NCBI GenBank assembly: GCA_003599885.1
Contig: QZKW01000067.1
Location: 1-54,840 of the forward strand
Direction: 5' to 3'
Origin: Desulfobacteraceae bacterium
GTDB taxonomy: Bacteria; Desulfobacterota; Desulfobacteria; Desulfobacterales; Desulfosalsimonadaceae
DNA length: 54,840 nucleotides
Shown: positions 36,726-51,583 of the stretch, piece after piece
How the letters are laid out: every line of letters begins with the position of its first letter
How positions within the stretch are numbered: the first letter of the stretch is position 1
Made by a program: the position numbers and the translations under genes
Notes under the pieces: model-generated
Seen by the model: only the letters and a program-made list of their open reading frames with translations
What the model was told of the DNA's origin: nothing
The model's database searches: none

Positions 36726-37232
36726 ATGGAACTGACGGATCTGTTATCCCTTGAGAAGTGGGTTGAGTTTGAAAAAGATGTGTATGCACGGTCCGGCCTG
36801 GATGCGAGCGTTTTTAACACCAAAGGCATCCGGATCACCGACTATAAGCAATGGGTGAACCGGTTTTGTCCGGCGGTTAAGGCCGATGACCGGGGCCAGA
36901 GCTTTATTTGCGCGGTGGCCCACATGAATGTCGCTGAAATGGCGAAAAATGCCAAGAAACCTGTGATTGAGGAATGCGACGCCGGGCTGCTGAAACTGGT
37001 GGCGCCGATTTTCGTTGATGATGAGTTTGTCGGAGCGTTCGGGGCCTGCGGCCTGATCTTAGACGACGGCGAGGTGGATTCTTTTATGGTGAACAAGACC
37101 ATTGGCATGGATGAGACGGAAATTGAAAGCCTTTCCAATGACATCAAACATATATCCTCGGAAGCGGCCAATGAGCTGGCGGCATACATTCAGGGGCGGA
37201 TTGAAGAAGTCGTGGCCCAATACAAAGGCTAA
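36726..37232 (+). CDS. Stand-alone PocR-type sensory domain protein
   Basis: 168 residues. It resembles the PocR ligand-binding domain (PF10114): LLSLEKWVEFEKDVYARSGL, conserved Cys in NRFCPAV and SFICAVAH, EECDAGLLKLVAPIFVD and AFGACGLI. In other proteins this domain sits before kinases or DNA-binding domains and senses small hydrophobic compounds; here nothing is attached. It may act as a soluble sensor or redox protein. It is divergent from the toxin-antitoxin operon and convergent with the selenoprotein gene. Confidence 0.82.
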   Translation: MELTDLLSLEKWVEFEKDVYARSGLDASVFNTKGIRITDYKQWVNRFCPAVKADDRGQSFICAVAHMNVAEMAKNAKKPVIEECDAGLLKLVAPIFVDDEFVGAFGACGLILDDGEVDSFMVNKTIGMDETEIESLSNDIKHISSEAANELAAYIQGRIEEVVAQYKG

Positions 37233-37385: not shown

Positions 37386-38588
37386 TTAGTCAATAATCAG
37401 GATATCCGCCACCAGTTCCCATAAATATTTGACGGAGATATGCCCCATGCCGTTTTCCGCCAAGAGCGTCTTGATTTGGCCGTGGCAGCTATGGCACGGG
37501 AGAACGATCATGTCTGCCCTGCTTTGCCGGATCTGTCGGATTTTTTTCTCGCCATAGATCAGCCGCTCATCTTTATAGGGCGTCAGCAGCGTCCCGCCGC
37601 CACCGCCGCAGCAATACTGGTTGCCTTTGTTCGGGGTTAAATCCACCCAGTCGGACACGCATTGGTTCAGCACCCACCGGGGTTCGTCATAAAACCCGTG
37701 CCCGAACAGTTCTTCGGACTTGCGGCCGTAATTGCAGGGATCGTGATAGGCGATGCGGCCGGTGATCAGGGACTTGTCCAGTTTGATGCGGCCGGATTTG
37801 ATATAATCCATCAGCAGGTCAAATACCGTGAGCGCGCCGAACCGGTCAAAGAAATCCGGAAACCATTTTTGCAACCCGTACCGGGTCGCCAGATACGCGT
37901 GCCCTCACTCCGGGTACATCAGGTTTTTGATGTCAAGCGTCTCCATGTGTTCCACAATGCGGCCCACAAAGACCTTCATGGCGTCATCGTCGCCGGAGAA
38001 CAGGCCCCAGTTCACGCCTTCCCAGTTGACCGAAGGAATGGTCCAGTCTTCCCCGGCTTTATAAAAAATTTTCCACCAGTGCACCAGGTCTTCATTCTGG
38101 GTGTTCACCAGCTTGTTGTGAAGGGTATGGAGGAGATTTGCGCCCTGCTTGTCAAACGGCACCGCAAAATCCTCGAACCCCGGGGTTTCAGCAAGCTCGG
38201 TCGCAACGTCCTCAATGATGAACTGAAAATCCTCTGCCGGAAGTCCCAGATTGTTGCCGGTTTCAAGATCCAGTTCAACCCCTTTATGAATCATTCCCGG
38301 AACCTTGTCGCGATCAACCATTCCGCGGGCGGTTCGCATGATATGGACAATGTTGATCCCCATAGGGCAGGCATGCTCGCACTTGCCGCACATGGTGCAG
38401 AGCCAGGGCAGGGGGGAGTCGACAAGTTCCCGGTCGTTTCCTTCCAGCACCATCCGGACGATTTTGCGGGGGTCGAAGCCGCTGATGCCGGTAAGCGGAC
38501 AACCCGCGGAGCAGGTGCCGCAGGAAAGGCAAAGATCGGGAATGCTTTCTATAGGGCGAAGGGGGGCTTTATCTTTAATAGTGTGCAT
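37386..38588 (-). CDS. HdrD-like (Fe-S)-binding CCG-domain oxidoreductase, probable selenoprotein
   Basis: Two minus-strand frames (38588-37905 and 37874-37386) are in the same phase, divided only by UGA at 37907-37905. Read as selenocysteine the protein is 400 residues with Sec228. The N-terminal half has HdrC-like [4Fe-4S] motifs CLSCGTCSAGCP and CTMCGKCEHACP. Around the UGA the text is NLMYPE-U-GHAYLATRYG, where relatives have PECGHAY; the second CCG half follows with HDPCNYGRKSE, YCCGGGGG and LPCHSCHGQI. A strong hairpin starts 15 nt after the UGA. Likely function: thiol/disulfide or quinone-linked electron transfer. A pseudogene with a point nonsense mutation is the alternative, but all motifs are intact on both sides. 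Confidence 0.85.
37871..37907 (-). promoter_or_regulatory. Candidate bacterial SECIS element with the Sec UGA codon
   Basis: On the minus strand the UGA (37907-37905) is followed after 15 nt by GCGACCCG-GUA-CGGGUUGC (37889-37871): eight base pairs including one G-U, with a three-base GUA apical loop. The loop is 23 nt from the UGA, inside the distance range known for SelB-dependent bacterial SECIS elements, and carries the G-U typical of the loop. Confidence 0.78.
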
Positions 38589-38704: not shown

Positions 38705-39607
38705 CTAAATATTGTTGGCTTGTTCAACTATTTTTCGAATAAAGGTAGAGTCAATATCTTCGGCTGTTAAATAAAGTTCGGGATAGTCTCCCCAACCATT
38801 ACGTATTATATTTCCGTTTCTGTCTTTGTAATTACCTTTTCGTAACCAGATCGCAATCTTTCGCCTGTCAGGCCTTATCCATATCAAACCTTTTCCTCCT
38901 GCATAAAAACATATCATGGACTTTTTAATTTTTTCCTCAACGTTTGGATTAATTTGATATACTATTTGTTTTATAAGCATGTACGCTGCTCTGATATCGG
39001 GTTCAACGCCATTAAGCAGCGCATCATCGCTGAACGCCTTGAATTGAGAATTTACATTTTTAATGACTTTACTGGCCTTCGTAATCTTACCTAAATTTGC
39101 CGAAGCTCGCTGAGAGCTTATCTTATTGTAGCCGATAATATTATTTGAATTATTTGAATATAGCCGTACCTTCCAGAGTTCAATAGGAAGATCTCTGAAG
39201 CTAATGGCTTCTATTTGATAAGGCGTGAAGGAAGGAGATATGAAAATTACTTTAGACCGGGACCAGTCAAAATCTTCTTTTTTAGAAGAAGACGCTGCAT
39301 GTTCATTATATTTAAGTACGAAGTCTGCTTTGTTATTAAACATTGCAGATAAGTAAGCATATCCTTGATCAATAACACTAAAATTTTGATCATTTTTATA
39401 TTCGAAAATAACAAATGAACTTAGATCATCGTCGAAACCAACCGTATCTAGTCTAAAATGTCCTACCGAAAATTCTGAGCAAACAAATTTGATTCCAAAT
39501 ATTAATTGAAGATTCTGCTCAGTGATTGTCTGCATTTCTTTTTCAGAGGTGAAAGTAACAAGATTCATGCGTGTGAGTGATTTACCAGAAATTCCAAATA
39601 TTGGCAT
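38705..39607 (-). CDS. DUF5655/COG3586-like protein with possible nuclease fold
   Basis: 300 residues, GGGGGGGAGAG before the ATG. The N-terminal part contains RLDTVGFDDDLSSFVIFEYK, an Asp...Glu-x-Lys arrangement as in PD-(D/E)xK nucleases, followed by QGYAYLSAMFNNKADFVL. The C-terminal ~100 residues (SMICFYAGGKGLIWIRPD, KIAIWLRKG) resemble the DUF5655 domain. The gene is clearly more AT-rich than its Hdr neighbours, which suggests recent acquisition. Relatives have been called transport proteins without good reason; a DNA-acting or defence function is more likely but unproven. Confidence 0.7.
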   Translation of the reverse strand: MPIFGISGKSLTRMNLVTFTSEKEMQTITEQNLQLIFGIKFVCSEFSVGHFRLDTVGFDDDLSSFVIFEYKNDQNFSVIDQGYAYLSAMFNNKADFVLKYNEHAASSSKKEDFDWSRSKVIFISPSFTPYQIEAISFRDLPIELWKVRLYSNNSNNIIGYNKISSQRASANLGKITKASKVIKNVNSQFKAFSDDALLNGVEPDIRAAYMLIKQIVYQINPNVEEKIKKSMICFYAGGKGLIWIRPDRRKIAIWLRKGNYKDRNGNIIRNGWGDYPELYLTAEDIDSTFIRKIVEQANNI

Positions 39608-39749
39608 GGTTCTCTCCCCCCCTTTATTCTTTTGTATCCTATAACAGTTAAAATAAATGGAAAAACTAACAACTATAATATGGAAGATCAGCCCACATTC
39701 AAGTCAAATCAAATATGCTTTGGGTGGTTTGGCTAACAGTCTTCAGTCT

Positions 39750-39845
39750 ATAGCCTACTCAGGCTCCACTTCCAGTGCCCCCATAACCCCTGATCCTCAA
39801 AATCCTCCAAAAAAGTCGCGCTGCTGTGACAGATGACGGCGCAGA
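39750..39845 (-). pseudogene. Degraded copy of the 3' end of the double-hdrA gene
   Basis: The stretch 39791-39844 matches 40587-40640, the end of the 847-residue hdrA-like gene, at about 45 of 54 bases. In the same sense it reads AVICHSSATFLEDFEDQ against AAICPNSATLLGDFEDH. Similarity also returns at ATAGCCTAC just beyond the stop. The copy has lost its ferredoxin cysteines and ends abruptly near the mazF stop codon. Confidence 0.8.
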
Positions 39846-39878
39846 CTTTTTGATTCTCTGAATTTGTGGGTTGGCCGC

Positions 39879-40214
39879 TCAGTAGATACAGGCCTCCAAA
39901 ATGGAAAGCACTTCTGACAACAGCTCATCATTACCATGTTCAATGCGTTTGGCGCGGCGGGAACTGAAATCAACCGATTTGACCTGTTCCACCATAACAA
40001 ATCCCGTCAGTTTGCTTTCTTTCGGAATCGGCACATGAAAGGGAAAATGACGATCAGTGTTTGTAATCGGGCATACCATCGCCAGGCCTGTGCTTCGATT
40101 GAACAGATCCTTGCTGACAACAAGGGCAGGCCGACGCCCTTTCTGTTCATGACCGGATTGCGGATCGAAGGTGATGGCAATGATGTCCCCTTGTTTGGGG
40201 ATATAAGCGGCCAT
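39879..40214 (-). CDS. mazF: MazF/PemK-family toxin
   Basis: 111 residues, starting AAYIPKQGDIIAITFDPQSG with KGRRPALVVSKDLFN, MVCPITNTDRHFPFHVPIP and VEQVKSVDFSSRRA. These are the MazF signatures, including the catalytic Arg (RRPALVVS) and Thr (ITNT). It is a sequence-specific endoribonuclease. The start directly follows the antitoxin stop (TAGATG). Confidence 0.96.
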   Translation of the reverse strand: MAAYIPKQGDIIAITFDPQSGHEQKGRRPALVVSKDLFNRSTGLAMVCPITNTDRHFPFHVPIPKESKLTGFVMVEQVKSVDFSSRRAKRIEHGNDELLSEVLSILEACIY

Positions 40215-40463
40215 CTACCATTCCTCCTTGCCGACCGGCTCTCCCCAGTCAACCTCACCGGGTTGGTAGCTTTTTGGGATACGCGCCACGAGATCTTTAA
40301 GGTTATGACGGCCGCGTTCCCTTTTGGCGGGCGCAACAATCATTATGCCGTCTTTTACGCTGATATTCACCTCATCGCCGACATCCAGTTTCACATCTGC
40401 AAGCAGATTCTTACTGATTCGAAGTCCCTGGCTGTTTCCCCATTTTTGAATTTTTGCAAGCAT
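40215..40463 (-). CDS. mazE: MazE-type antitoxin (AbrB fold)
   Basis: 82 residues from the ATG at 40463, with AAGGAGG upstream; the longer frame would extend into the promoter. The N-terminus KIQKWGNSQGLRISKNLLAD and VGDEVNISVKDG is the SpoVT/AbrB DNA-binding fold, and the acidic/aromatic C-terminus (SYQPGEVDWGEPVGKEEW) should inhibit MazF. Confidence 0.95.
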   Translation of the reverse strand: MLAKIQKWGNSQGLRISKNLLADVKLDVGDEVNISVKDGIMIVAPAKRERGRHNLKDLVARIPKSYQPGEVDWGEPVGKEEW

Positions 40464-40476
40464 CGGATACCTCCTT

Positions 40477-40517
40477 ATGTATATCCAATGTATAGCCACT
40501 TTGGGCGCGATTATCAA
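40477..40517 (-). promoter_or_regulatory. mazEF promoter with repeated operator motif
   Basis: On the minus strand TTGATA (40517-40512) and TATACA (40494-40489) are 17 bases apart. The -10 overlaps two copies of TATACAT spaced by four bases (40494-40477), a plausible MazE operator. The promoter begins only ~25 bases upstream of the end of the last hdr gene's intergenic space, so mazEF has its own control. Confidence 0.75.
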
Positions 40518-40549
40518 GGAAAAATTCGAAGCCACCAATAGCCTACAAC

Positions 40550-43093
40550 CTATCCTATCGCCGTTTCCAGCGCATCCATCACCCGGTGATCTTCAAAATC
40601 CCCCAAAAGGGTCGCGCTGTTGGGGCAGATGGCAGCGCAGGCTCCGCAACCCTGGCAGGCAGCGACATCCACCATAATGCGGTTTTGTTCCGTGTCGGCA
40701 AACCGGGCCCCATAGGGACAAGTATCTATGCAGAGTTCGCAACGGGAGCAGATAGCATGCCGGACAATAGCCGTGACCCGTTGGGGTTTGATGAGGTCGC
40801 TTGCAAGGATGCGAAATGCCCGGCAGGCCGCTGCTTCGCCTTCCTGGATGCTTTGCAGGGCAGTTTGGGGAGCCCGCCCCAGACCGGCCACAAAAATGCC
40901 TTCTCTGGGACTATCCACCGGCCGCCATTTATAATCCGCTTCCTTGAAAAATGCGTCAACGGTCAGGGGGATGAAGAACATCCGGGCTATGTCGTCCGAA
41001 GGATTTGGCGATACTCCGGTGGACAAGACGACCATATCGGGTTTAAAGCTTACTGCCGCATTCTTTATCGGATCATGACCAGTGACGATGATATCCGGTC
41101 CGTTAATGCTCACAGACGGTTTACGGCTCACGTCAAAGGGAATAAAGCAAATACCTTTGCGCCGGGCTTCGGTATATAGCGTTTCAGTGTCGCCGGTGGT
41201 CATGATGTCCCTGTAGAATATCCGGATATCGGTCTCCGGCCACTTTTCCTTTAATCCAATCGCATTGTTCAGGGCCTTGATGCAGCAAATCCGGCTGCAA
41301 TAATTGGCGGGTTCTTCCCGTGAACCGGCGCACTGGATCATGACCACGGATTTGGGGGGAAGTTGATCCAGTTCCCCGTCATGGAGGCGTTTTTCCAGAT
41401 CAAACTGGGTTATGATGCGGTCATCAGTGCCGGAACCATAAGCATCGGTTTGGGCGGCATGACCGCCGGTGACGATGACGGTCGCGCCGTGTACCAGTAT
41501 TTTTTCACCTTCTTCCCCAAGCCTGATCCGGGAGACAAACCGGCCGGGGATGCCCTGATGATTGATTACCTGGGCGTTTTTATAAACCGTAATCAGCGGA
41601 TGGTTCATTACATTCGTAATCAGCTGTGCAATGGATTCTTTGGTGTCTTTATCAACAATATGGGCCGCATTTCCGCCCAGCGCATCTTGTTTTTCCACCA
41701 GCGCCACTTTGACGTAAAACCCCGCAAGGGTCAGGGCGGCGCTCAGTCCGGCAGGCCCGCCGCCGACAACCAGGGCGGTTTTCTCCACGGGTCTGCTTTG
41801 TGAATCGGCAGGCGAATCATCCGAAGCCGTTTTTTCATGGGTTTTGGGGAGGATTTTTTTGAGCAATCCTGCGGCAGCAGCGCCGGAGGCAATTACGGAC
41901 TCGGATATGTCTTTGAATTGCTGGACCGAATCCGGCATAAAGCCCCCGTCATGACGCACAAAGTCCGGCAACACCGGGGCGGGTTTCCGGCCGGTGGACA
42001 GTATTGCCAAGTCAAAAATTTCTTCAATCCTATGGCCTTCGGCATCCACATAACTGATGATGAGATCGCCGGGGGTGTCTGCCGGTTCGATGCTGTGGAC
42101 CCGGCAGCGGATAAACCGGACGCCCAGTTCAAATTCGGCCCGGTCTTTGTACCGCTGGAAATCGCGTCCGAAGGTGCGCATGTCCATATAAAATATAGTG
42201 GTCTCGGCTCCCTCGATTTTTTCGTGCGCCAGAATCGCTTCTTTGACGGCGATCATGCAGCATGCGGTGGAACAATGATCGGCCCCGAGCATGAGGTTGC
42301 GTGAGCCCACACATTGCAGCCATGCGATTTTTTTAATGGGCAGATGATCGGAAGGCCTTACTGTAATATCGGCAAACGGTCCCGCGCTGTTTAAGATGCG
42401 CTCAAAACCCGTTGACGTCACCACGTTGGGCAATATCCCGAACCCGTAAAGGTCTACCGCCCGAGGATCAAACAACTCCGCGCCCGGCGTATAAATCACC
42501 CCGGCGATGTTTTGAAGGGTCTGGGGTCGTGAAGCAGCGTCCAGATTGATGGCCGATTCCGGGCATATTTTGCGGCAGGCGTCGCATCGGTTGCAGGCAT
42601 CCCAATTGATGGTGCGCTTTGTTCCCGACTGGTGCGGCACGGGTTTGTATATGGCCTTGGAAAAAGATAGGGACGCATTGAATTGATCCGGAATTTCAAC
42701 CGGACAAACGGTTTCGCACTCGCCGCAATCCGTGCATCGTTCCGGGTCGACACCAGTAGGGGTGGTAGCAAGGGTGACGGTCATGTTCCCCGGAGCGCCT
42801 GTGATGCCAAGAACTTCCGTTTGGGTCAAAATCCGGATGTGGTCATGATCCAGCCCTCTGCGCAGGCAGGTCTGCCGGCAATCATCCCGGTTAATCATCG
42901 GGAGTATGCGGCACATGCCGCAATGGTCATCCGGGAACTGGTGATCGATCTGGGACAGGATGCCCCCACTGGCTGCCGCTTTGTCGACCAGCGTCACCCG
43001 GCACCCGGTTTCAGCCAAATCAATGGCGGCGTGCATGCCGCTGATGCCAGCGCCTATGATGAGTACATGGGGCCTTGTGTTGTTCGGAACCAT
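40550..43093 (-). CDS. Double HdrA-like flavo-iron-sulfur subunit (fused)
   Basis: 847 residues. Two FAD-binding halves: the first opens with VLIIGAGISGMHAAIDLA, has the HdrA-type Cys region HCGMCRILPMINRDDC and two [4Fe-4S] motifs CTDCGECETVCP and CNRCDACRKICP; the second opens with ALVVGGGPAGLSAALTLAG about residue 440 and ends with ferredoxin motifs CSRCELCIDTCP and CQGCGACAAICP. It resembles QmoA/QmoB or HdrA with a duplicated flavin domain. It is the last gene of the hdrCBA-mvhD run, 3 nt after the FrhB-type gene. Role by family: flavin-based electron branching within a soluble Hdr complex. Confidence 0.9.
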   Translation of the reverse strand: MVPNNTRPHVLIIGAGISGMHAAIDLAETGCRVTLVDKAAASGGILSQIDHQFPDDHCGMCRILPMINRDDCRQTCLRRGLDHDHIRILTQTEVLGITGAPGNMTVTLATTPTGVDPERCTDCGECETVCPVEIPDQFNASLSFSKAIYKPVPHQSGTKRTINWDACNRCDACRKICPESAINLDAASRPQTLQNIAGVIYTPGAELFDPRAVDLYGFGILPNVVTSTGFERILNSAGPFADITVRPSDHLPIKKIAWLQCVGSRNLMLGADHCSTACCMIAVKEAILAHEKIEGAETTIFYMDMRTFGRDFQRYKDRAEFELGVRFIRCRVHSIEPADTPGDLIISYVDAEGHRIEEIFDLAILSTGRKPAPVLPDFVRHDGGFMPDSVQQFKDISESVIASGAAAAGLLKKILPKTHEKTASDDSPADSQSRPVEKTALVVGGGPAGLSAALTLAGFYVKVALVEKQDALGGNAAHIVDKDTKESIAQLITNVMNHPLITVYKNAQVINHQGIPGRFVSRIRLGEEGEKILVHGATVIVTGGHAAQTDAYGSGTDDRIITQFDLEKRLHDGELDQLPPKSVVMIQCAGSREEPANYCSRICCIKALNNAIGLKEKWPETDIRIFYRDIMTTGDTETLYTEARRKGICFIPFDVSRKPSVSINGPDIIVTGHDPIKNAAVSFKPDMVVLSTGVSPNPSDDIARMFFIPLTVDAFFKEADYKWRPVDSPREGIFVAGLGRAPQTALQSIQEGEAAACRAFRILASDLIKPQRVTAIVRHAICSRCELCIDTCPYGARFADTEQNRIMVDVAACQGCGACAAICPNSATLLGDFEDHRVMDALETAIG

Positions 43094-43096
43094 GAT

Positions 43097-44203
43097 TTAA
43101 ATCCCTTCATTGCCGGTATTTTCATCAAACACCAGCAGAGGAATGGCTTCGGAAAGGTCCCGGCCCGGTTCATAATCATACAGTTTCTGGATTTCCTCCG
43201 CCACCCGGATAAACACGTCGGCCACGGGAATGTGGCTGGGGCAGACGCTGGAACAATGCCCGCAGGCGACACAGGCATGGGCAATATGCGCCATGCGGGT
43301 CATGTGAAACATGGTGGTGTCCGCCGGCAGTTTAACCATTCCTTTTTTGGAGGCGCGGCGCAGCAGCACTTCCGGATCATGGGCGAACACGTCCGTCAAA
43401 AAAACACATTCCCGGCAATAACACACCGGGCAGGCTACACGGCAGTTATGGCAATTCAGACAGTCGGCAAAATAGCGCTGGAATTTTTCAATGGAATCGG
43501 TTTTATCTTTGTTTTCCGATAGAAGAGCAGCTTTTGAAGCCTTGCGTTCATCCAGAAGGCGATGGATCTGATCCTCTCTGCGGGCAGGGGCTTCACTGGT
43601 TTCAAAACCCAGTTGTTTTAAAACCGAAAGCCCTGCCTCTGTTTCAGCAGACAATCCGATGCATTCATTTGCGGGCATTCCGACCAGACACAGGGAAATA
43701 TCCGCATGAACGGGCTGAAACCGGGTGCAGATGGCGCAAGACGAGCAAATGTGTTTTTGCAGGTCCGGATCTTCATAAAACGCCTGGGTCAGGCCGGGAT
43801 TTTGGGATGCTGATTCAAGATATACCGAGTTTTCCATTCGCCCCAGGCATTCGATGCCAATCAGAAGGGTGTTGTCCAATGAGCACTGCTTTAATTTGGC
43901 CAGTTCGATAAGCGCCCGGATTTCACAGGGCCGCAGCACCAGGGCAATGCGTTTGCCGGTATCATGTTTTAATACCGATATTGCCTGACGGGCAGAATTA
44001 AAGGGTGCTGCCGGGGCCAGCGGGTCTGCTTTCTCGATTAAATCGGGGGCCGTAAACAGCGTCGGCATGGGAAGTAAAGAATAAGGGGTCGGCGCGGCCG
44101 CCAGGACGGCATCGGCTATCTGCTCGGTCAGCAATTTTTTTAAAAAACCGGCAACGGCATTCGAAAGATGACCGTCGGTTTTGATTATAACGAATGGGTG
44201 CAT
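43097..44203 (-). CDS. FrhB/FdhB-type flavo-ferredoxin subunit with two extra [4Fe-4S] sites
   Basis: 368 residues. The N-terminal part matches the FrhB/FdhB C-terminal domain (LVLRPCEIRALIELAKLK, LLIGIECLG, CSSCAICTRFQPVHADI). The C-terminal half has CLNCHNCRVACPVCYC and CVACGHCSSVCPSHIP. Relatives couple F420, formate or NAD(P)H oxidation to Fe-S chains in Hdr complexes. Here it lies between mvhD and the double hdrA and is the most likely entry point for electrons. Which donor is used cannot be told from sequence. Confidence 0.85.
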   Translation of the reverse strand: MHPFVIIKTDGHLSNAVAGFLKKLLTEQIADAVLAAAPTPYSLLPMPTLFTAPDLIEKADPLAPAAPFNSARQAISVLKHDTGKRIALVLRPCEIRALIELAKLKQCSLDNTLLIGIECLGRMENSVYLESASQNPGLTQAFYEDPDLQKHICSSCAICTRFQPVHADISLCLVGMPANECIGLSAETEAGLSVLKQLGFETSEAPARREDQIHRLLDERKASKAALLSENKDKTDSIEKFQRYFADCLNCHNCRVACPVCYCRECVFLTDVFAHDPEVLLRRASKKGMVKLPADTTMFHMTRMAHIAHACVACGHCSSVCPSHIPVADVFIRVAEEIQKLYDYEPGRDLSEAIPLLVFDENTGNEGI

Positions 44204-44213
44204 GGTGATCCTC

Positions 44214-44636
44214 TTATAATATCATACAATCACGGGCCGGGTTGGGCCCCATCGCTTGAATGGCTGCCACGAATTCGGTCATGTGGCGCTGAAATTCCGG
44301 GCCTTCGCTGGCGCCGATCCACTGGAGCTTGAGACGTGCCGGATCAAATCCGAATTGCTCCAGAAGTTTGCCAACGCCGGTGATCCGTTTGACGGCTTTA
44401 AGATTGCCATTAATATAATGACAGTCGCCGGGATGACATCCGCCGATAAACACCCCGTCTGCCCCGTCGAGAAACGCTTTCAGGATATATTTGGCGTCGA
44501 TCATTCCGGTGCACATAAGCCGGACAATGCGGATATTGGATGGATACGTCAGCCGGGATGTGCCGGCCAAGTCTGCGGCTGTATAGGTGCACCAGTTGCA
44601 TACCATCGCGATAATTTTGGGTTCAAAATCACTCAT
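44214..44636 (-). CDS. mvhD: MvhD/FrhD-type [2Fe-2S] electron-transfer subunit
   Basis: 140 residues from the ATG at 44636, which overlaps the hdrA stop (TTATGAG). Conserved cysteines are in place: MVCNWCTYTAADLAG, RLMCTGMID and GGCHPGDCHYINGN. In methanogens and sulfate reducers MvhD links hydrogenase or dehydrogenase modules to HdrA. Its position between hdrA and the FrhB-like gene fits that linking role. Confidence 0.94.
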   Translation of the reverse strand: MSDFEPKIIAMVCNWCTYTAADLAGTSRLTYPSNIRIVRLMCTGMIDAKYILKAFLDGADGVFIGGCHPGDCHYINGNLKAVKRITGVGKLLEQFGFDPARLKLQWIGASEGPEFQRHMTEFVAAIQAMGPNPARDCMIL

Positions 44637-46600
44637 AACAAAATTGCCTCCATTTCTTCCATAATCTGCCGGTCGGTAAAGTGCCGGATACCGGCGGCAC
44701 TGCTGGGACAGGCCGCGGCGCAACTGCCGCATCCCTTGCACAAAGCTTCATTCACAACGGCAACCCTCCGGCTTTCGTCAAAACTGATGGCTGTGTATGG
44801 GCATACCTCGATGCAGGTTTTGCATCCGCTGCACAGGTCCGGATCAATATATGATATTTCAGCCAGCGTCCGGACCGTCCCCTTGGCAAGCAATGATACG
44901 GCTTCTCCGGCAGCGGCGGATGCCTGGGCCACGGTGTCCGGAATATCTTTGGGCCCCTGGCAGCACCCGGCCAGAAAAATGCCGTTCATGGCGGTTTTGA
45001 CCGGGGCCAGCTTGGCGTGCAGTTCGTTAAACCATCCGTCCGCGTCTCGCTGCACCCCGAGCATCCGGCCCACTGCATCGCTGCCGTCCGCGGGTTCAAG
45101 GCCGACGCCCAATAGCACCATATCCACCGGGACCCTCAGAACTCGCCGGGTCAGGGTGTTCTCCGCCACCACCGTGAGACGGCCTTCATCTTTTTTGGTT
45201 TCAGGAATATCAGTCACCTCGGCGACCCTTCCCCGAATCATGTGCACGCCTTCTTCCTGAATCCGGTTGTAAAATTCCTCATAGAGTTTACCGGGTGAGC
45301 GGATGTCGATATAAAATTCCCACACTTCAGCGCCCGTTTTTTCCCGCACCAGATGGGCGAATTTCATGGAGTACATGCAACAGACCCTGGAACAGTAAGG
45401 GTGATATCGGGAATCGCGGGATCCCACGCAATGGATAATGGCAACTTTTTCCGGCGGTTTTCCGTTTTTCATCAACAGTTTGCCCGCCGTCGGACCGGTG
45501 GCGTTGTTCAGCCGTTCAAACTCCAGGCTGGTATACACTTCCGGATACCGGCCATATCCGTATTGGGAAAGGGGTGTGGGGTCAAATGCTTTGAACCCGG
45601 TGGCAACGATAATGCTTCCCGCAGCAATTTCGATGACTTCTTCCTGTTGATTAAAATCGATGGCCCCGGCTTCACAAAATTTTTTACAGGCCCGGCACTT
45701 GCCTTTGGTAAAATAAATGCAGTGGTCCCTGTCAATCACCGGCGTGTTGGGGATGGCCTGGGGAAAAGGCGAATAAACGGTTTTCCGGTGGGTGAGCCGT
45801 TGGTCGAATTCCGAAAGAACTTTGGATGGGCATTTGGTAGTGCAGATGCCGCAACCGGTACATTTGGATGCATCCACATAGCGGGGGTTGTGACGGATAC
45901 AGACTTTAAAATTACCGACGAACCCTTCCACTGAATCTACTTCGCTGTAAGTGTGGAGAGTGATGTTTTTGTGCTGGGCCACCTCCACCATTTTTGGCGT
46001 CATAATGCAGGCCGCGCAATCCAATGTGGGAAACGTTTTGTCGAATTTCGCCATATGACCGCCGATGGAAGGCTCTCGTTCCACGATATGGACTTCATAT
46101 CCGGCTTCCGCAGCAGTCAGGGCCGCCTGAATGCCGGCGATGCCGCCGCCGATCACCACTACGGATTTTTTAACCTTAATTTCGCGGCTGGTCAGGGGCG
46201 CATGATAGACCGCCCGGGCAACGGCTGCGGCCACCTGGTCACGGGCTTTGGCCGTGGCTTCAGCGGAATCTTTGGTTACCCATGAAATTTGTTCGCGGAT
46301 ATTGGCCATCTGAAAATAATGGGGATTGATGCCGGCCTGTTCACAGGCTTTGCGAAATGTCTGCTCATGCATGCGGGGAGAACAGGATGCGACAATAATT
46401 CGGTTTAAGCCCTTTTCACGGATGTCTTTGATGATAAATTCCTGGCCCGGGCTGGAGCACATGAATTTATAGTCCCGGGCCACCGTCACATGATCAAGGG
46501 TTTCGGCGAAGGCCACGACATTTTCAACATCCACTTTCGGAGAGATGTTCATGCCGCAGTGACATACATAAACGCCGATGCTGGGTTTTTCGTATTTCAT
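44633..46600 (-). CDS. hdrA: Heterodisulfide reductase subunit A
   Basis: 655 residues. N-terminal YVCHCGMNISPKVD and VVASCSPRMHEQTF, FAD motif VVVIGGGIAGIQAAL, Cys motif TLDCAACIMTPKM (this position is selenocysteine in some methanogens, Cys here), then CTGCGICTTKCP, CRACKKFCEAGA, and C-terminal ferredoxin motifs CSGCKTCIEVCP and CKGCGSCAAACP. This is the bifurcating flavin subunit of Hdr complexes. Follows hdrB by 32 nt and overlaps mvhD. Confidence 0.96.
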   Translation of the reverse strand: MKYEKPSIGVYVCHCGMNISPKVDVENVVAFAETLDHVTVARDYKFMCSSPGQEFIIKDIREKGLNRIIVASCSPRMHEQTFRKACEQAGINPHYFQMANIREQISWVTKDSAEATAKARDQVAAAVARAVYHAPLTSREIKVKKSVVVIGGGIAGIQAALTAAEAGYEVHIVEREPSIGGHMAKFDKTFPTLDCAACIMTPKMVEVAQHKNITLHTYSEVDSVEGFVGNFKVCIRHNPRYVDASKCTGCGICTTKCPSKVLSEFDQRLTHRKTVYSPFPQAIPNTPVIDRDHCIYFTKGKCRACKKFCEAGAIDFNQQEEVIEIAAGSIIVATGFKAFDPTPLSQYGYGRYPEVYTSLEFERLNNATGPTAGKLLMKNGKPPEKVAIIHCVGSRDSRYHPYCSRVCCMYSMKFAHLVREKTGAEVWEFYIDIRSPGKLYEEFYNRIQEEGVHMIRGRVAEVTDIPETKKDEGRLTVVAENTLTRRVLRVPVDMVLLGVGLEPADGSDAVGRMLGVQRDADGWFNELHAKLAPVKTAMNGIFLAGCCQGPKDIPDTVAQASAAAGEAVSLLAKGTVRTLAEISYIDPDLCSGCKTCIEVCPYTAISFDESRRVAVVNEALCKGCGSCAAACPSSAAGIRHFTDRQIMEEMEAILL

Positions 46601-46632: not shown

Positions 46633-47481
46633 TCAGAATTTCAAGCCTGCCGTCTGCATGGGCGTCAGCAATTTGTCCATCCCCAAAATGCTGGGGGGAA
46701 GTCCCAGTGAAAGTCCTGCAAGTTGTGTGAAATAGGGAACGGGGAGCGACGGGCCCCTTTGTTTTTCCTGAACGGCGTCAATGTTGATCTGGCACAGCGG
46801 GCAAAGGGTGCTGATGGCCTGCCCTCCCTTTCGTTTGATTTCATTAACGATTCGTTCGCAGAGGGTGCGGCAGCTGTCTTCATAGGTAATGAAATGAGAC
46901 GCGCCGCAGCACACTGTTTTTGCGCCATGCTCAACCGGCTCATAGCCCAGCCGGGCAATGAAATTATCCATTATTTGCGGGTGCTCGGGATCATCGATGT
47001 CCGCCCAGGGGCGGGTCAACTGGCATCCGTAATAAGACGCCACTTTCATGGGTTTGAAATTGGCTGCCCTTTTTCGGGACCAAAGTGCTTCATCAATATC
47101 ATGAGACCAGACATCCAAAAGGTGGCGCACCGGGGGCAGGGTTGTAATGGCAAGCCCCTCAATGGCCAGGCGCTCGTTGACCCGGCGGGTCAGCTCCGGT
47201 TCGGTTTTAAACGTTTTACTTGCTTTACGCAACGTCGTGTAACAGGCATTACAGGTGGTGATGATGGTGTCCAGTTTCTGTCTGGCGGCAAGGGCAAAAA
47301 TTCTGCCGGTCAGCACAAGGCCGTCCATCTGGTCCAGACTGAAGATACTGGTCGCGCCGCAACAGTTCCAGTCGTTAATGGTGACCAGTTCAAGTCCGAT
47401 CACCCGGCATACGGCTTCCACCGAATGCTTGTACACCGCTTCCGTCTTATAAGCGCAGCCTGGATAAAATCCATAAGTCAT
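46633..47481 (-). CDS. hdrB: Heterodisulfide reductase subunit B (CCG domains)
   Basis: 282 residues from the ATG at 47481. Two CCG repeats are intact: YGFYPGCAYKTE with DWNCCGATSIFSLD and TTCNACYTTL; then ASYYGCQLTRP, KTVCCGASHFITYED and TLCPLCQINID. These bind the paired noncubane [4Fe-4S] clusters that reduce disulfides. In sulfate reducers the substrate is probably a protein or small disulfide (for example a DsrC-type trisulfide partner) rather than CoM-S-S-CoB. Starts two bases after hdrC ends. Confidence 0.95.
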   Translation of the reverse strand: MTYGFYPGCAYKTEAVYKHSVEAVCRVIGLELVTINDWNCCGATSIFSLDQMDGLVLTGRIFALAARQKLDTIITTCNACYTTLRKASKTFKTEPELTRRVNERLAIEGLAITTLPPVRHLLDVWSHDIDEALWSRKRAANFKPMKVASYYGCQLTRPWADIDDPEHPQIMDNFIARLGYEPVEHGAKTVCCGASHFITYEDSCRTLCERIVNEIKRKGGQAISTLCPLCQINIDAVQEKQRGPSLPVPYFTQLAGLSLGLPPSILGMDKLLTPMQTAGLKF

Positions 47482-47482
47482 T

Positions 47483-48019
47483 TTATTTTTTTGCCTTTTC
47501 CCCCAGCATGCAGGCAAGATGCTGAGGGTGTTTTATTTTTTGCGGAGAAATTTCAAGACGGTTTTTTTTAAAGAGTTGAAGACCCAGAGACATTTTTCCC
47601 AGCATGTCGCCAGGGTGTTTCATGCCATATCGGCTCATCAGATGAATGGCGCTCACTCTTCCATGCCGTTCAATATCCTTATGGAAGATATGATACATGT
47701 CCTGCATTTTATGGGTTTTCGGAGCAAGACCGAGTTCTGTCGCCATCTGTTTTAGCATATACATGATGTCGGTCACCGGAATTTCTTTTGGGCACCGTGA
47801 CATGCAGTTATAGCAGGATACACAAAACCATGGGGTATTGGACCGGAGAACTTCTTCCATGTGTCCGTCCCGGATAAGGGCGAAAATTTCCCTGGGCGCA
47901 TGATCCATGTTTTCATTCAACGGGCAGGATGCGCTGCAGGTGCCGCATTGGATACAGCTTAAAATTTTTTTCCCAAGAGCATGATCAAAAAAACGTTTCT
48001 GAAGGATTGAATGATCCAT
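47483..48019 (-). CDS. hdrC: Heterodisulfide reductase subunit C
   Basis: 178 residues. Two [4Fe-4S] motifs: CIQCGTCSASCP and CVSCYNCMSRCP, with helical connecting region and C-terminal tail. HdrC hands electrons to HdrB. It is the first gene of the minus-strand hdr run. The 137 bases between it and the upstream methyltransferase probably hold the operon promoter, though I see no clear consensus. Confidence 0.95.
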   Translation of the reverse strand: MDHSILQKRFFDHALGKKILSCIQCGTCSASCPLNENMDHAPREIFALIRDGHMEEVLRSNTPWFCVSCYNCMSRCPKEIPVTDIMYMLKQMATELGLAPKTHKMQDMYHIFHKDIERHGRVSAIHLMSRYGMKHPGDMLGKMSLGLQLFKKNRLEISPQKIKHPQHLACMLGEKAKK

Positions 48020-49870: not shown

Positions 49871-51583
49871 ATGACAGATACGACCCATATTGCCCATGGG
49901 GGCCGGCTGGTAAATTTGCTCGTGGATGAGAACCGGGCCCGGGAACTCAAGGGCATGGCCCTGAATTTGCCCGATATTGCGTTAAATGACCGTCAGGCGT
50001 GTGATCTTGAAATGTTGGCGGTTGGCGGGTTTTCACCGCTTACGGGATTTATGACGCAAGCTGACTACGAATCCGTGCTGGATCGGATGCGGCTCAAAAA
50101 CGATGTCCTCTGGCCGGTTCCGGTATGTCTGGATGTGTCTGAAGCTTTGGCTGAAAAGCTTAAAAAGGGTGATTCTCTGGCTTTAAGAGATCCTGAAGGG
50201 TTTCTGCTGGCGGTCATGCACATTAAAGACATCTGGAAGGCGGACCGGGAAAGAGAAGCTCAGCAGGTTTTTGAAACCACGGATACCCATCATCCGGGTG
50301 TTTGGCAGTTGCTCCATAAATCCAGCCCATGCTATATCGGTGGCGATATTGAGGTCATTAACCTGCCCCTGCATTTTGATTTTAAACAAATCCGGCTGAC
50401 GCCTGCCGAGCTTCGGGCAATATATGCCAAACTCGGGTGGAACCGGATTGTGGGATTCCAGACGCGGCAGCCCCTTCACCGGTTTTTGTTTGAAATGACC
50501 ACCCGTGCCATGCGCCAGACCCGTGCCAACCTGCTTCTTCTGCCAGCGGTTGGCATGACCCGGCCCGGCGATTTTGATCATTATACACGGGTCCGCTGTT
50601 ATCAGGCCGTGTCTAGATATTTTCCTCCGAACTCCCATCTGACTTCCTTGCTGCCTTTGGCTATGCGGCTATCGGGCCCCAGAGACGCGATTTTGGATGC
50701 CATCATCGCTAAAAATTACGGGTGCTCCCATTTTATTGTGGGCCATGACCACGCCAGTCCGGGAAATGCCCGGAATGGCCTTCCGTTTTATGAAAGCGAC
50801 CGGGCCCGGAATACCGCTGCCCAATTCAGCGAGGAACTGGGCGTGGAAATCGTTTCCTTTGAAAAGCTCGTTTATCTGCCTTTTGAAGACGAATACCGTG
50901 GCGTGGACGAGGTGTCCGAGGATGCCCAGACGATTTTCATGACCGGGACGGATATCCGGAACCGAATCCATCAGGGACGGCGCATTCCCGAGTGGGCGAC
51001 ATTCAAGGAAGTGGTCGAAGAACTTCAAAAAGCCTATCCTCCGCCCCGTCGGCAGGGGTTTACCATTTTTTTAACCGGGTTGTCCGGGGCTGGAAAATCT
51101 ACAGTGGCCAAGGTATTGTATTCATTGTTTCTTGAAATCGGCGACCGCCCGGTCACGCTTCTGGACGGCGATATTGTAAGGCTGAACCTTTCCAATGAAC
51201 TGAGTTTTACCAAAGAACACCGGGACATCAATGTCCGGCGTATCGGATATGTGGCCAGCGAAATTACAAAAAATCGCGGCATTGCTATTTGCGCGCCCAT
51301 TGCCCCCTATGAGAGGACCCGCCGGGAGGTACGGCAAACGATTGAACAATATGGCGGATTTATTGAGGTGCATGTGTCAACCCCCATCACCGAATGCGAG
51401 CGCCGGGACCGGAAAGGCATGTACGCCAAGGCCCGGGCCGGGCTGATCAAGGGGTTTACCGGTGTGGATGATCCGTATGAATCTCCGGAGTCCCCGGAAC
51501 TTCGGATTAATACAACGGACCAGACGCCGGTTGAATCCGCCCAGGAAATATTGCTGTTTTTAGGGAAAAAAGGATATATTTAA
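49871..51583 (+). CDS. Bifunctional sulfate adenylyltransferase/adenylylsulfate kinase
   Basis: 570 residues. The ATP sulfurylase half (~1-390) has FQTRQPLHRFLFEMTTRA, GMTRPGDFDHY and FIVGHDHASPGN, with the HxxH-type active site. The APS kinase half opens with FLTGLSGAGKSTVAKVL (Walker A, about residue 400) and DGDIVRLNLSNELSF, ending with GFTGVDDPYESP. It converts sulfate to PAPS. In a sulfate reducer the dissimilatory Sat is separate, so this fused form points to sulfation of sugars or assimilation. Follows cysQ, precedes a UDP-sugar dehydrogenase by 6 nt. Confidence 0.95.
   Translation: MTDTTHIAHGGRLVNLLVDENRARELKGMALNLPDIALNDRQACDLEMLAVGGFSPLTGFMTQADYESVLDRMRLKNDVLWPVPVCLDVSEALAEKLKKGDSLALRDPEGFLLAVMHIKDIWKADREREAQQVFETTDTHHPGVWQLLHKSSPCYIGGDIEVINLPLHFDFKQIRLTPAELRAIYAKLGWNRIVGFQTRQPLHRFLFEMTTRAMRQTRANLLLLPAVGMTRPGDFDHYTRVRCYQAVSRYFPPNSHLTSLLPLAMRLSGPRDAILDAIIAKNYGCSHFIVGHDHASPGNARNGLPFYESDRARNTAAQFSEELGVEIVSFEKLVYLPFEDEYRGVDEVSEDAQTIFMTGTDIRNRIHQGRRIPEWATFKEVVEELQKAYPPPRRQGFTIFLTGLSGAGKSTVAKVLYSLFLEIGDRPVTLLDGDIVRLNLSNELSFTKEHRDINVRRIGYVASEITKNRGIAICAPIAPYERTRREVRQTIEQYGGFIEVHVSTPITECERRDRKGMYAKARAGLIKGFTGVDDPYESPESPELRINTTDQTPVESAQEILLFLGKKGYI

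Follow-up and report, generated by a model that had tools for sequence, protein, structure and literature searches.

The window analysed here is a stretch of 54,840 nucleotides from a Desulfobacteraceae bacterium (GenBank assembly GCA_003599885.1, contig QZKW01000067.1), in which the gene of an HdrD-like Fe-S oxidoreductase is crossed by a single in-frame UGA. The locus raises two questions: whether this UGA is read as selenocysteine (Sec), as a sequence-only reading had proposed, and, if so, what Sec would do in a protein of otherwise Hdr-like build.

One reading frame crossed by a UGA

37386..38588, minus strand: proposed Sec-containing HdrD-like Fe-S oxidoreductase, 400 aa, by translation (ATG at 38588, stop codon ending at 37386)
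37905..37907, minus strand: UGA codon, read as selenocysteine 228 (PE-U-GHAY) on homologue comparison at this column

The gene, its Sec codon, the hairpin that follows, the Sec machinery and the gene order are all visible in the DNA itself. Translation of 38588 to 37386 confirms that one UGA joins two open halves in the same frame, and places them on the minus strand, which the sequence-only reading had not given. It yields 227 codons before the UGA and 172 after it up to the stop, reproduces the reading NLMYPE-U-GHAYLATRYG and, as had been claimed, finds the 10 codons from the UGA to a downstream TTG open and the Cys motifs on both sides intact (two CX2CX2CX3C, DPC, CCGGGGG, PCHSC). The forecast that ORF calling would report the gene in two also held, the list giving pieces of 227 aa (37905-38588) and 162 aa (37386-37874, TTG start). 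An enzyme of energy-metabolism type is thus recovered that ORF calling divides in two.

This layout alone is not decisive, because the window contains four in-frame stops that are preceded by at least 200 open codons and followed by at least 150. The UGA of the Sec gene is the sole TGA among them; the other three, TAA or TAG at 51581, 16934 and 43099, each end a listed ORF. Support beyond chance comes from comparison with other genomes, and on that evidence we judge the interrupted gene to be a real selenoprotein gene. That it is both a Sec gene and HdrD-like in nature seems highly probable.

The half after the UGA behaves as coding sequence. When the window gene is compared with nine relatives, dN/dS is 0.055-0.211 after the UGA (finite in six of the nine comparisons) and 0.040-0.088 before it (finite in four of nine), and pN/pS is 0.130-0.363 after versus 0.062-0.205 before, the downstream value being the higher in seven of the nine relatives. 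These ratios clearly point to purifying selection on a protein-coding downstream half, somewhat less constrained than the upstream one.

Comparative evidence for Sec at residue 228

A pattern search of the named genome contigs gave 44 matches, of which 15 encode a relative; TGA stands at this codon in all 15, one of them (L035) showing it once read in the proper frame. A search across the phylum drew 395 genomes, scored no more than four candidates in each and found a match at 1e-20 in 211; TGA stands at the codon in each of its best 30 matches, window gene included. Among the listed matches above 460 bits, 57 of 58 contain exactly one TGA, the codon itself having been checked in the 30 that were fetched. 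Twenty more distant loci, all chosen because no stop was listed in them, were added, and 19 of these are readable. The 69 sequences readable at the site, window gene included, comprise 47 with Sec (the window gene and two paralogues of its own genome among them) and 22 with Cys, the 47:22 proportion being no natural ratio, as 19 of the 22 Cys rows were selected for absence of a stop. No other residue occurs, and the alignment that had been proposed as a check therefore finds TGA or Cys at this codon in all readable homologues. Outside the 69 are L111 (unreadable) and L071 (not picked up in extraction; ECGH with TGC in a motif scan).

The genome itself holds both forms of the family. Cys members (L068, L070, L071 and the DsrK L086) lie at other places, and two further members have TGA at the site:

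G000:C37:23239-24381 (L067): paralogue with TGA at the same site
G000:C4:30170-31306 (L069): paralogue with TGA at the same site

A tree was built from 57 of the 69 readable rows after manual removal of near copies; on it the Sec/Cys label changes at least four times (bootstrap range 3-4), against a mean of 17.9 changes when labels are shuffled. Long branches (DsrK L086, L070 and L109) leave the deep part of the tree unsure; well-supported branches force two changes, and on these Sec and Cys have been exchanged at the site at least twice. The distribution of the Sec gene is also patchy, the best match to it in a same-genus genome (G333) being only 39% identical. The histidine after the site is not universal, because there are Cys members with PDCGG instead of ECGH (six of the 19 readable added loci: L103-L107 and L109) and a seventh with PDCAG.

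The second line of comparative evidence is a hairpin directly downstream:

37871..37907, minus strand: SECIS-type element (UGA, 15-nt spacer, stem GCGACCC/GGGTTGC, loop GGTAC)

We call it SECIS-type on the basis of the spacing rule of bacterial SECIS elements. Folded as a single sequence it is not significant alone (-15.1 kcal/mol, z -0.74; 45 of 200 shuffled sequences fold at least as well). Across sequences it occurs in two registers, a CGG type (21 sequences, the window among them; ACCC[GGnnn]GGGT), in which L043 and L045 are counted but may fit the other register, and an AGG type (26 sequences; mostly GACC[AGGnnn]GGTC). GG occupies hairpin positions 26-27 in all 44 distinct sequences. Paired cells number 73 of 80 in the CGG type (20 distinct rows) and 96 of 96 in the AGG type (24 distinct rows), and double changes from C-G to T-A occur in two distinct CGG-type and three distinct AGG-type sequences; in the CGG type, pair 22-34 is broken in five of 20 rows and pair 23-33 in two. 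When one arm was slid by one base as a control, 57/80 (CGG type) and 48/96 (AGG type) cells paired after a 3' shift and 43/80 and 50/96 after a 5' shift, many cells still pairing because of runs of C and G. Codon choice in the AGG type is skewed towards the hairpin, with GGT for Gly in 23 of 23 cases (18% elsewhere in the same genes) and GCG for Ala in 26 of 26 (20% elsewhere), the 26 of 26 for its Arg codon being so by construction, as that codon defines the group; in the CGG type, Arg is CGG in 21 of 21 against 36% elsewhere in the same genes. The binomial P values calculated in this comparison count related sequences as if independent and should not be read as probabilities. By comparison, then, a conserved bacterial SECIS-type hairpin is predicted after the UGA.

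The hairpins of the two TGA paralogues contain GTCC; in L067 this pairs with GGAC, and L069 has a broken outer pair. One Cys homologue (L096, G255:C51) keeps the GCGACCC/GGGTTGC stem after its Cys codon, with the loop GG changed to TT, and this stem looks like a fossil SECIS left by a Sec-to-Cys change.

The genome, rated 98.8% complete and 2.4% contaminated, also has all four components of the Sec machinery whose presence had been suggested as a check: selA (608.8 bits, C1), selB (369 bits, C10), selD (364.8 bits, C2, with an internal TGA of its own) and tRNA-Sec (selC; 74.7 bits, C26, anticodon TCA). The claim that the UGA encodes Sec is thus supported by two of the tests proposed for it, machinery and homologue codon. 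A second pair of decoding genes is present as well:

L090:11647-13554: second, divergent SelB, with GHRSHGKTT instead of GHIDHGKTS
G000:C28:11517-11606: second tRNA-Sec(UCA), with the second SelB directly after it

Two SelB matches at or below 1e-60 occur in four of 31 genomes, the present one included, one of these in a single contig. Contamination as the origin of the second SelB is disfavoured, a second match being found also in G395, G401 and G161. Two tRNA-Sec genes in some bacteria have been reported before, in the part of PMC5330540 covered here. The genes beside the second pair look rhodanese-like by eye.

Several readings other than Sec insertion can be set against these data. Were the gene decaying, the UGA would be a nonsense mutation and the downstream half a remnant, as the two pieces given by ORF calling might suggest; but the same TGA in 47 fetched sequences, the window gene and two own-genome paralogues included, the conserved hairpin, the Cys ligands invariant in 15 sequences and the low dN/dS after the UGA wherever it is finite reduce the chance of this to almost nothing. 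It is barely more credible that the UGA is a true stop and that the C-terminal half restarts as a second polypeptide at the TTG at 37874, for, although this codon exists 10 codons past the UGA, the GHAYLATRYG ahead of it is conserved as protein in the relatives, and the Cys homologues run through as a single protein. The second SelB and second tRNA-Sec, together with Cys as the alternative residue at the site, give a foothold to the idea that the UGA is decoded not only as Sec but, for example, as Cys by the divergent pair. Against it, G232 has TGA at the site (L042) with one SelB match only, selA and selD are present, and both tRNAs are called tRNA-Sec with anticodon TCA, so that this too is very improbable.

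The protein family has precedents in the literature. That Fe-S oxidoreductases are among selenoproteins, as the sequence-only reading had stated, is borne out by a family already listed: 'Fe-S oxidoreductase (GlpC)', motif UGH, COG0247/PTHR43551, in print since 2006 and given for Syntrophobacter fumaroxidans, Desulfotalea psychrophila and Desulfovibrio vulgaris in the parts covered of PMC1794560, PMC9312934 and PMC13188914. The motif is tabulated in the covered part of PMC13188914, WP_174406253.1 is a listed member, and a 2026 review, as far as covered, counts the family among those whose functions are largely uncharacterized. As in the UGH family, Sec stands directly before Gly-His in the present protein; hdrA and frhD/mvhD are the family's operon neighbours, and hdrA and mvhD are also near the Sec gene. 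The operon described in the covered parts, however, is glpC-hdrA-frhD-frhG-frhA, whereas the Sec gene lies with hdrC, hdrB, hdrA, mvhD, fdhB-like and hdrA2-like genes, and the neighbours searched include no hydrogenase gene. GlpC is also unsuitable as a name for the Sec protein, which scores 39 bits with TIGR03379, below the cut-off of 279.9.

A likeness is also found in Desulfobacterium autotrophicum HRM2, for which the covered part of PMC2702500 describes an HdrD type made of HdrC plus HdrB domains, a Sec-containing HdrD4 and an hdr locus VIII (Fig. 4 legend) with tandem hdrL/hdrA, a formate dehydrogenase subunit B gene, hdrB, hdrC and then hdrD2. Locus VIII is close to the present cluster, yet the Sec protein in that source is HdrD4, not HdrD2. 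In a MAG titled Desulforapulum autotrophicum (L033), the Sec gene stands behind hdrA-mvhD-fdhB-like-hdrA2-like. Because locus VIII is similar, the gene cluster is probably not new. An Fe-S oxidoreductase is likewise among the selenoproteins of a marine deltaproteobacterial MAG in the covered part of PMC8318568. The selenoprotein family is thus already known, and the addition made here is to read its protein as half an Hdr. This idea did not appear in the literature covered: the covered parts of PMC13188914, PMC1794560, PMC9312934 and PMC2702500 give no mechanism for the UGH site, and none of the titles found announces one.

Cluster sites and gene neighbourhood

38364..38531, minus strand: HdrC-like part, residues 20-75 (Pfam Fer4_8, residues 19-78); two CX2CX2CX3C, two [4Fe-4S] expected
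37470..37754, minus strand: C-terminal CCG domain, residues 279-373 (Pfam CCG, 44.9 bits); expected non-cubane [4Fe-4S] site

The term HdrD-like stands as a description and goes no further as a name, because the scores of the protein with equivalog models are far below their cut-offs: HmcF NF045711, the best NCBIfam match, 168.7 bits (cut-off 750), TmcB NF045724 154.8 (735), DsrK NF045796 142.7 (400), and GlpC as above. Its domain order is nonetheless similar to that of DsrK, TmcB and HmcF of sulfate reducers; the genome's own DsrK is L086 (G000:C15, 748.8 bits). Cys 20, 23, 26, 30, 64, 67, 70 and 74 are invariant in 15 sequences, as are the C-terminal CCG ligands C, CC and CxxC, that is, Cys285, 326, 327, 365 and 368.

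A 16-member profile of the family finds EtfD of Mycobacterium smegmatis (9ojn) at 2.9e-20, the CCG domains being in common. In EtfD, according to the covered part of PMC13083937, the linear cluster D1 is held by Cys503, 538, 581 and 584 and the non-cubane D2 by His583 and Cys637, 672, 673, 709 and 712; Hdr has two bridging Cys, Cys81 and Cys234, which substrate displaces. The hmmsearch alignment sets C228 on Cys581, H230 on His583 and A231 on Cys584, and Cys285, 326, 327, 365 and 368 on the Cys of DPC, CCG and CxxC (D2 ligands). For the D1 ligands Cys503, 538 and 584 there is no counterpart in the printed alignment, and that of Cys581 alone remains. Aligned by hhalign to the window's own HdrB, residue 228 falls on the first Cys of the first CxxC (probability 92.6). 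Cys81 and Cys234 of Hdr are, we assume, the second Cys of each CxxC; if this assignment holds, Cys368 would by analogy keep the bridging role, and its N-terminal counterpart would be Ala231.

Ligands for a second non-cubane cluster were not found in the first (N-terminal) CCG domain as aligned. EtfD retains the linear cluster D1 and HdrB (5odc) has two non-cubane clusters, as far as the sources were covered, whereas the Sec protein appears to have ligands for one CCG cluster. We infer from the alignments that the family kept the D2 site, lost D1 and retained one D1 ligand position, occupied by Sec or Cys, and the Sec/Cys exchange would then coincide in position with the loss of one of the two Hdr-type cluster sites. 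The earlier suggestion of a 'cluster-ligand or redox position' can thus be sharpened: in the alignment, residue 228 takes the place of one Cys ligand of the first CCG cluster, no other ligand of which remains, and the residue two positions on, His230, is the equivalent of the EtfD His that ligates the second cluster. In the Cys members with PDCGG (L103-L107, L109), this histidine, which in EtfD is in contact with the non-cubane cluster, is missing. An AlphaFold model (pLDDT 70.5; below 50 for residues 319-340 around the CCG loop) also has EtfD 9ojn as its best fold match (E 2.2e-9, TM 0.59 by query length, rmsd 6.8), a loose superposition, so that the model speaks for the fold only.

The genes around the Sec gene are as follows:

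36726-37232, convergent to the Sec gene: PocR sensory-domain protein
39879-40214, minus strand: PemK/MazF-type ORF (Pfam PemK_toxin, 101 bits)
40215-40538, minus strand: 107-aa ORF before the PemK/MazF-type ORF, AbrB-like by eye
40550..43093, minus strand: HdrA2-like flavoprotein, 847 aa (HdrA2 model 565.8 bits, below cut-off 1100)
43097..44203, minus strand: FrhB/FdhB-like Fe-S protein (Pfam FrhB_FdhB_C 24.8 bits, cut-off 23.3; Fer4_8 35.7)
44214..44741, minus strand: MvhD/FlpD (Pfam FlpD 170.6 bits; ORF as listed, domain from near residue 40)
44633..46600, minus strand: HdrA (HdrA2 model 833 bits, below cut-off 1100)
46633..47517, minus strand: HdrB-like, two CCG stretches, CxxC motifs present (TIGR03288 128.6 bits, below cut-off 345; Pfam CCG 75.1 bits)
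47483..48019, minus strand: HdrC-like (TIGR03290 78.3 bits, below cut-off 160)

The HdrC-like, HdrB-like, HdrA, MvhD, FrhB/FdhB-like and HdrA2-like genes all lie upstream of the Sec gene on the same strand. Two of the 15 related loci (L022, L032) hold no upstream sequence; among the 13 comparable ones, hdrA2-like is the next recognised upstream gene in 11, the exceptions being L024 and L035. The FrhB/FdhB-like protein is in the same place in relatives, and the order MvhD, FdhB-like, HdrA2-like, Sec-HdrD is found in eight of the 15. The gap between hdrA2-like and the Sec gene, measured to the ATG, is 15-111 bp in eight of the 11 loci and larger in L029 (347 bp), L033 (567 bp) and L023 (about 1.7 kb). 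In the window it is 1,961 bp; three ORFs, namely the PemK/MazF-type one, the 107-aa one preceding it and one of 300 aa that has no family, occupy window positions 38705-40538. The gap is also enlarged in the close relative L023. PocR homologues adjoin the Sec gene in L023, L024 and L026.

A possible mechanism and its alternatives

How these parts might act together can be put as follows. Sec would be inserted at the UGA (37907-37905), directed by the adjoining downstream hairpin and SelA/B/C/D, the locus being one gene and not two. The product would be an HdrCB-type fusion whose C-terminal CCG domain carries one non-cubane [4Fe-4S], reached by way of two cubane [4Fe-4S] clusters. Of the cluster once bound by the first CCG domain, only one ligand position would be left, that of Sec228; it is part of an E-U/C-G-H motif, and the histidine of this motif appears to match the EtfD residue ligating the remaining non-cubane cluster. 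Electrons exchanged with the neighbouring Hdr/MvhD/FdhB-like proteins would reach the non-cubane cluster; Sec228 would face this cluster and form or resolve a selenosulfide with the substrate, and the disulfide would be split between cluster and selenolate. The substrate would most likely be a protein disulfide such as that of DsrC, handled in either direction, although the gene cluster itself points to no particular substrate, DsrC included. We infer the cluster type, the place of Sec, the substrate and the direction from homology and context, and taken by itself the mechanism has somewhat less than an even chance of being right. More tentative still is the complete proposal of a disulfide reductase amounting to half an Hdr, in which one non-cubane cluster and the Sec228 selenolate, close to a His230 that would touch this cluster, replace the two clusters of classical Hdr for Se-Fe cleavage of a protein disulfide, and which would be a second catalytic unit, beside HdrB, in an HdrCBA-MvhD-FdhB-like-HdrA2-like-HdrD assembly in relatives of sulfate reducers. 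It does offer a testable mechanism for a selenoprotein family of largely uncharacterized function.

Sec may be inserted and yet serve otherwise. Sec228 could be a ligand that tunes the non-cubane cluster rather than a nucleophile, since its own EtfD equivalent is a ligand of the other cluster and the residue two positions downstream corresponds to a cluster ligand. The C-terminal CCG site, however, already has five invariant Cys, and the EtfD cluster to which the equivalent Cys belongs is without its remaining ligands in the Sec protein; we regard a ligand role as rather unlikely. Alternatively, the protein could be an EtfD-like electron relay that reduces no disulfide, with Sec tuning the potential or giving protection. 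In favour of a relay, the best solved fold match is EtfD, which the covered part of PMC13083937 describes as an electron conduit; but Cys368, the last Cys of the C-terminal CxxC, is kept and is taken, tentatively, to match the substrate-displaced bridging Cys234 of Hdr, and no membrane stretch is apparent by eye. A relay seems to us distinctly unlikely, and cleavage of a disulfide by cluster and selenolate is the reading that we prefer.

DsrC is a substrate of DsrK-type proteins, which have a role in sulfate respiration and its disulfide handling. The genome's own DsrK has Cys at the position of Sec228, in ECGH, so that an answer for the Sec protein would bear on DsrK-type disulfide handling in sulfate respiration. 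The two differ in the C-terminal CxxC: DsrK L086 is without its last Cys (CAID), whereas the Sec family has that Cys.
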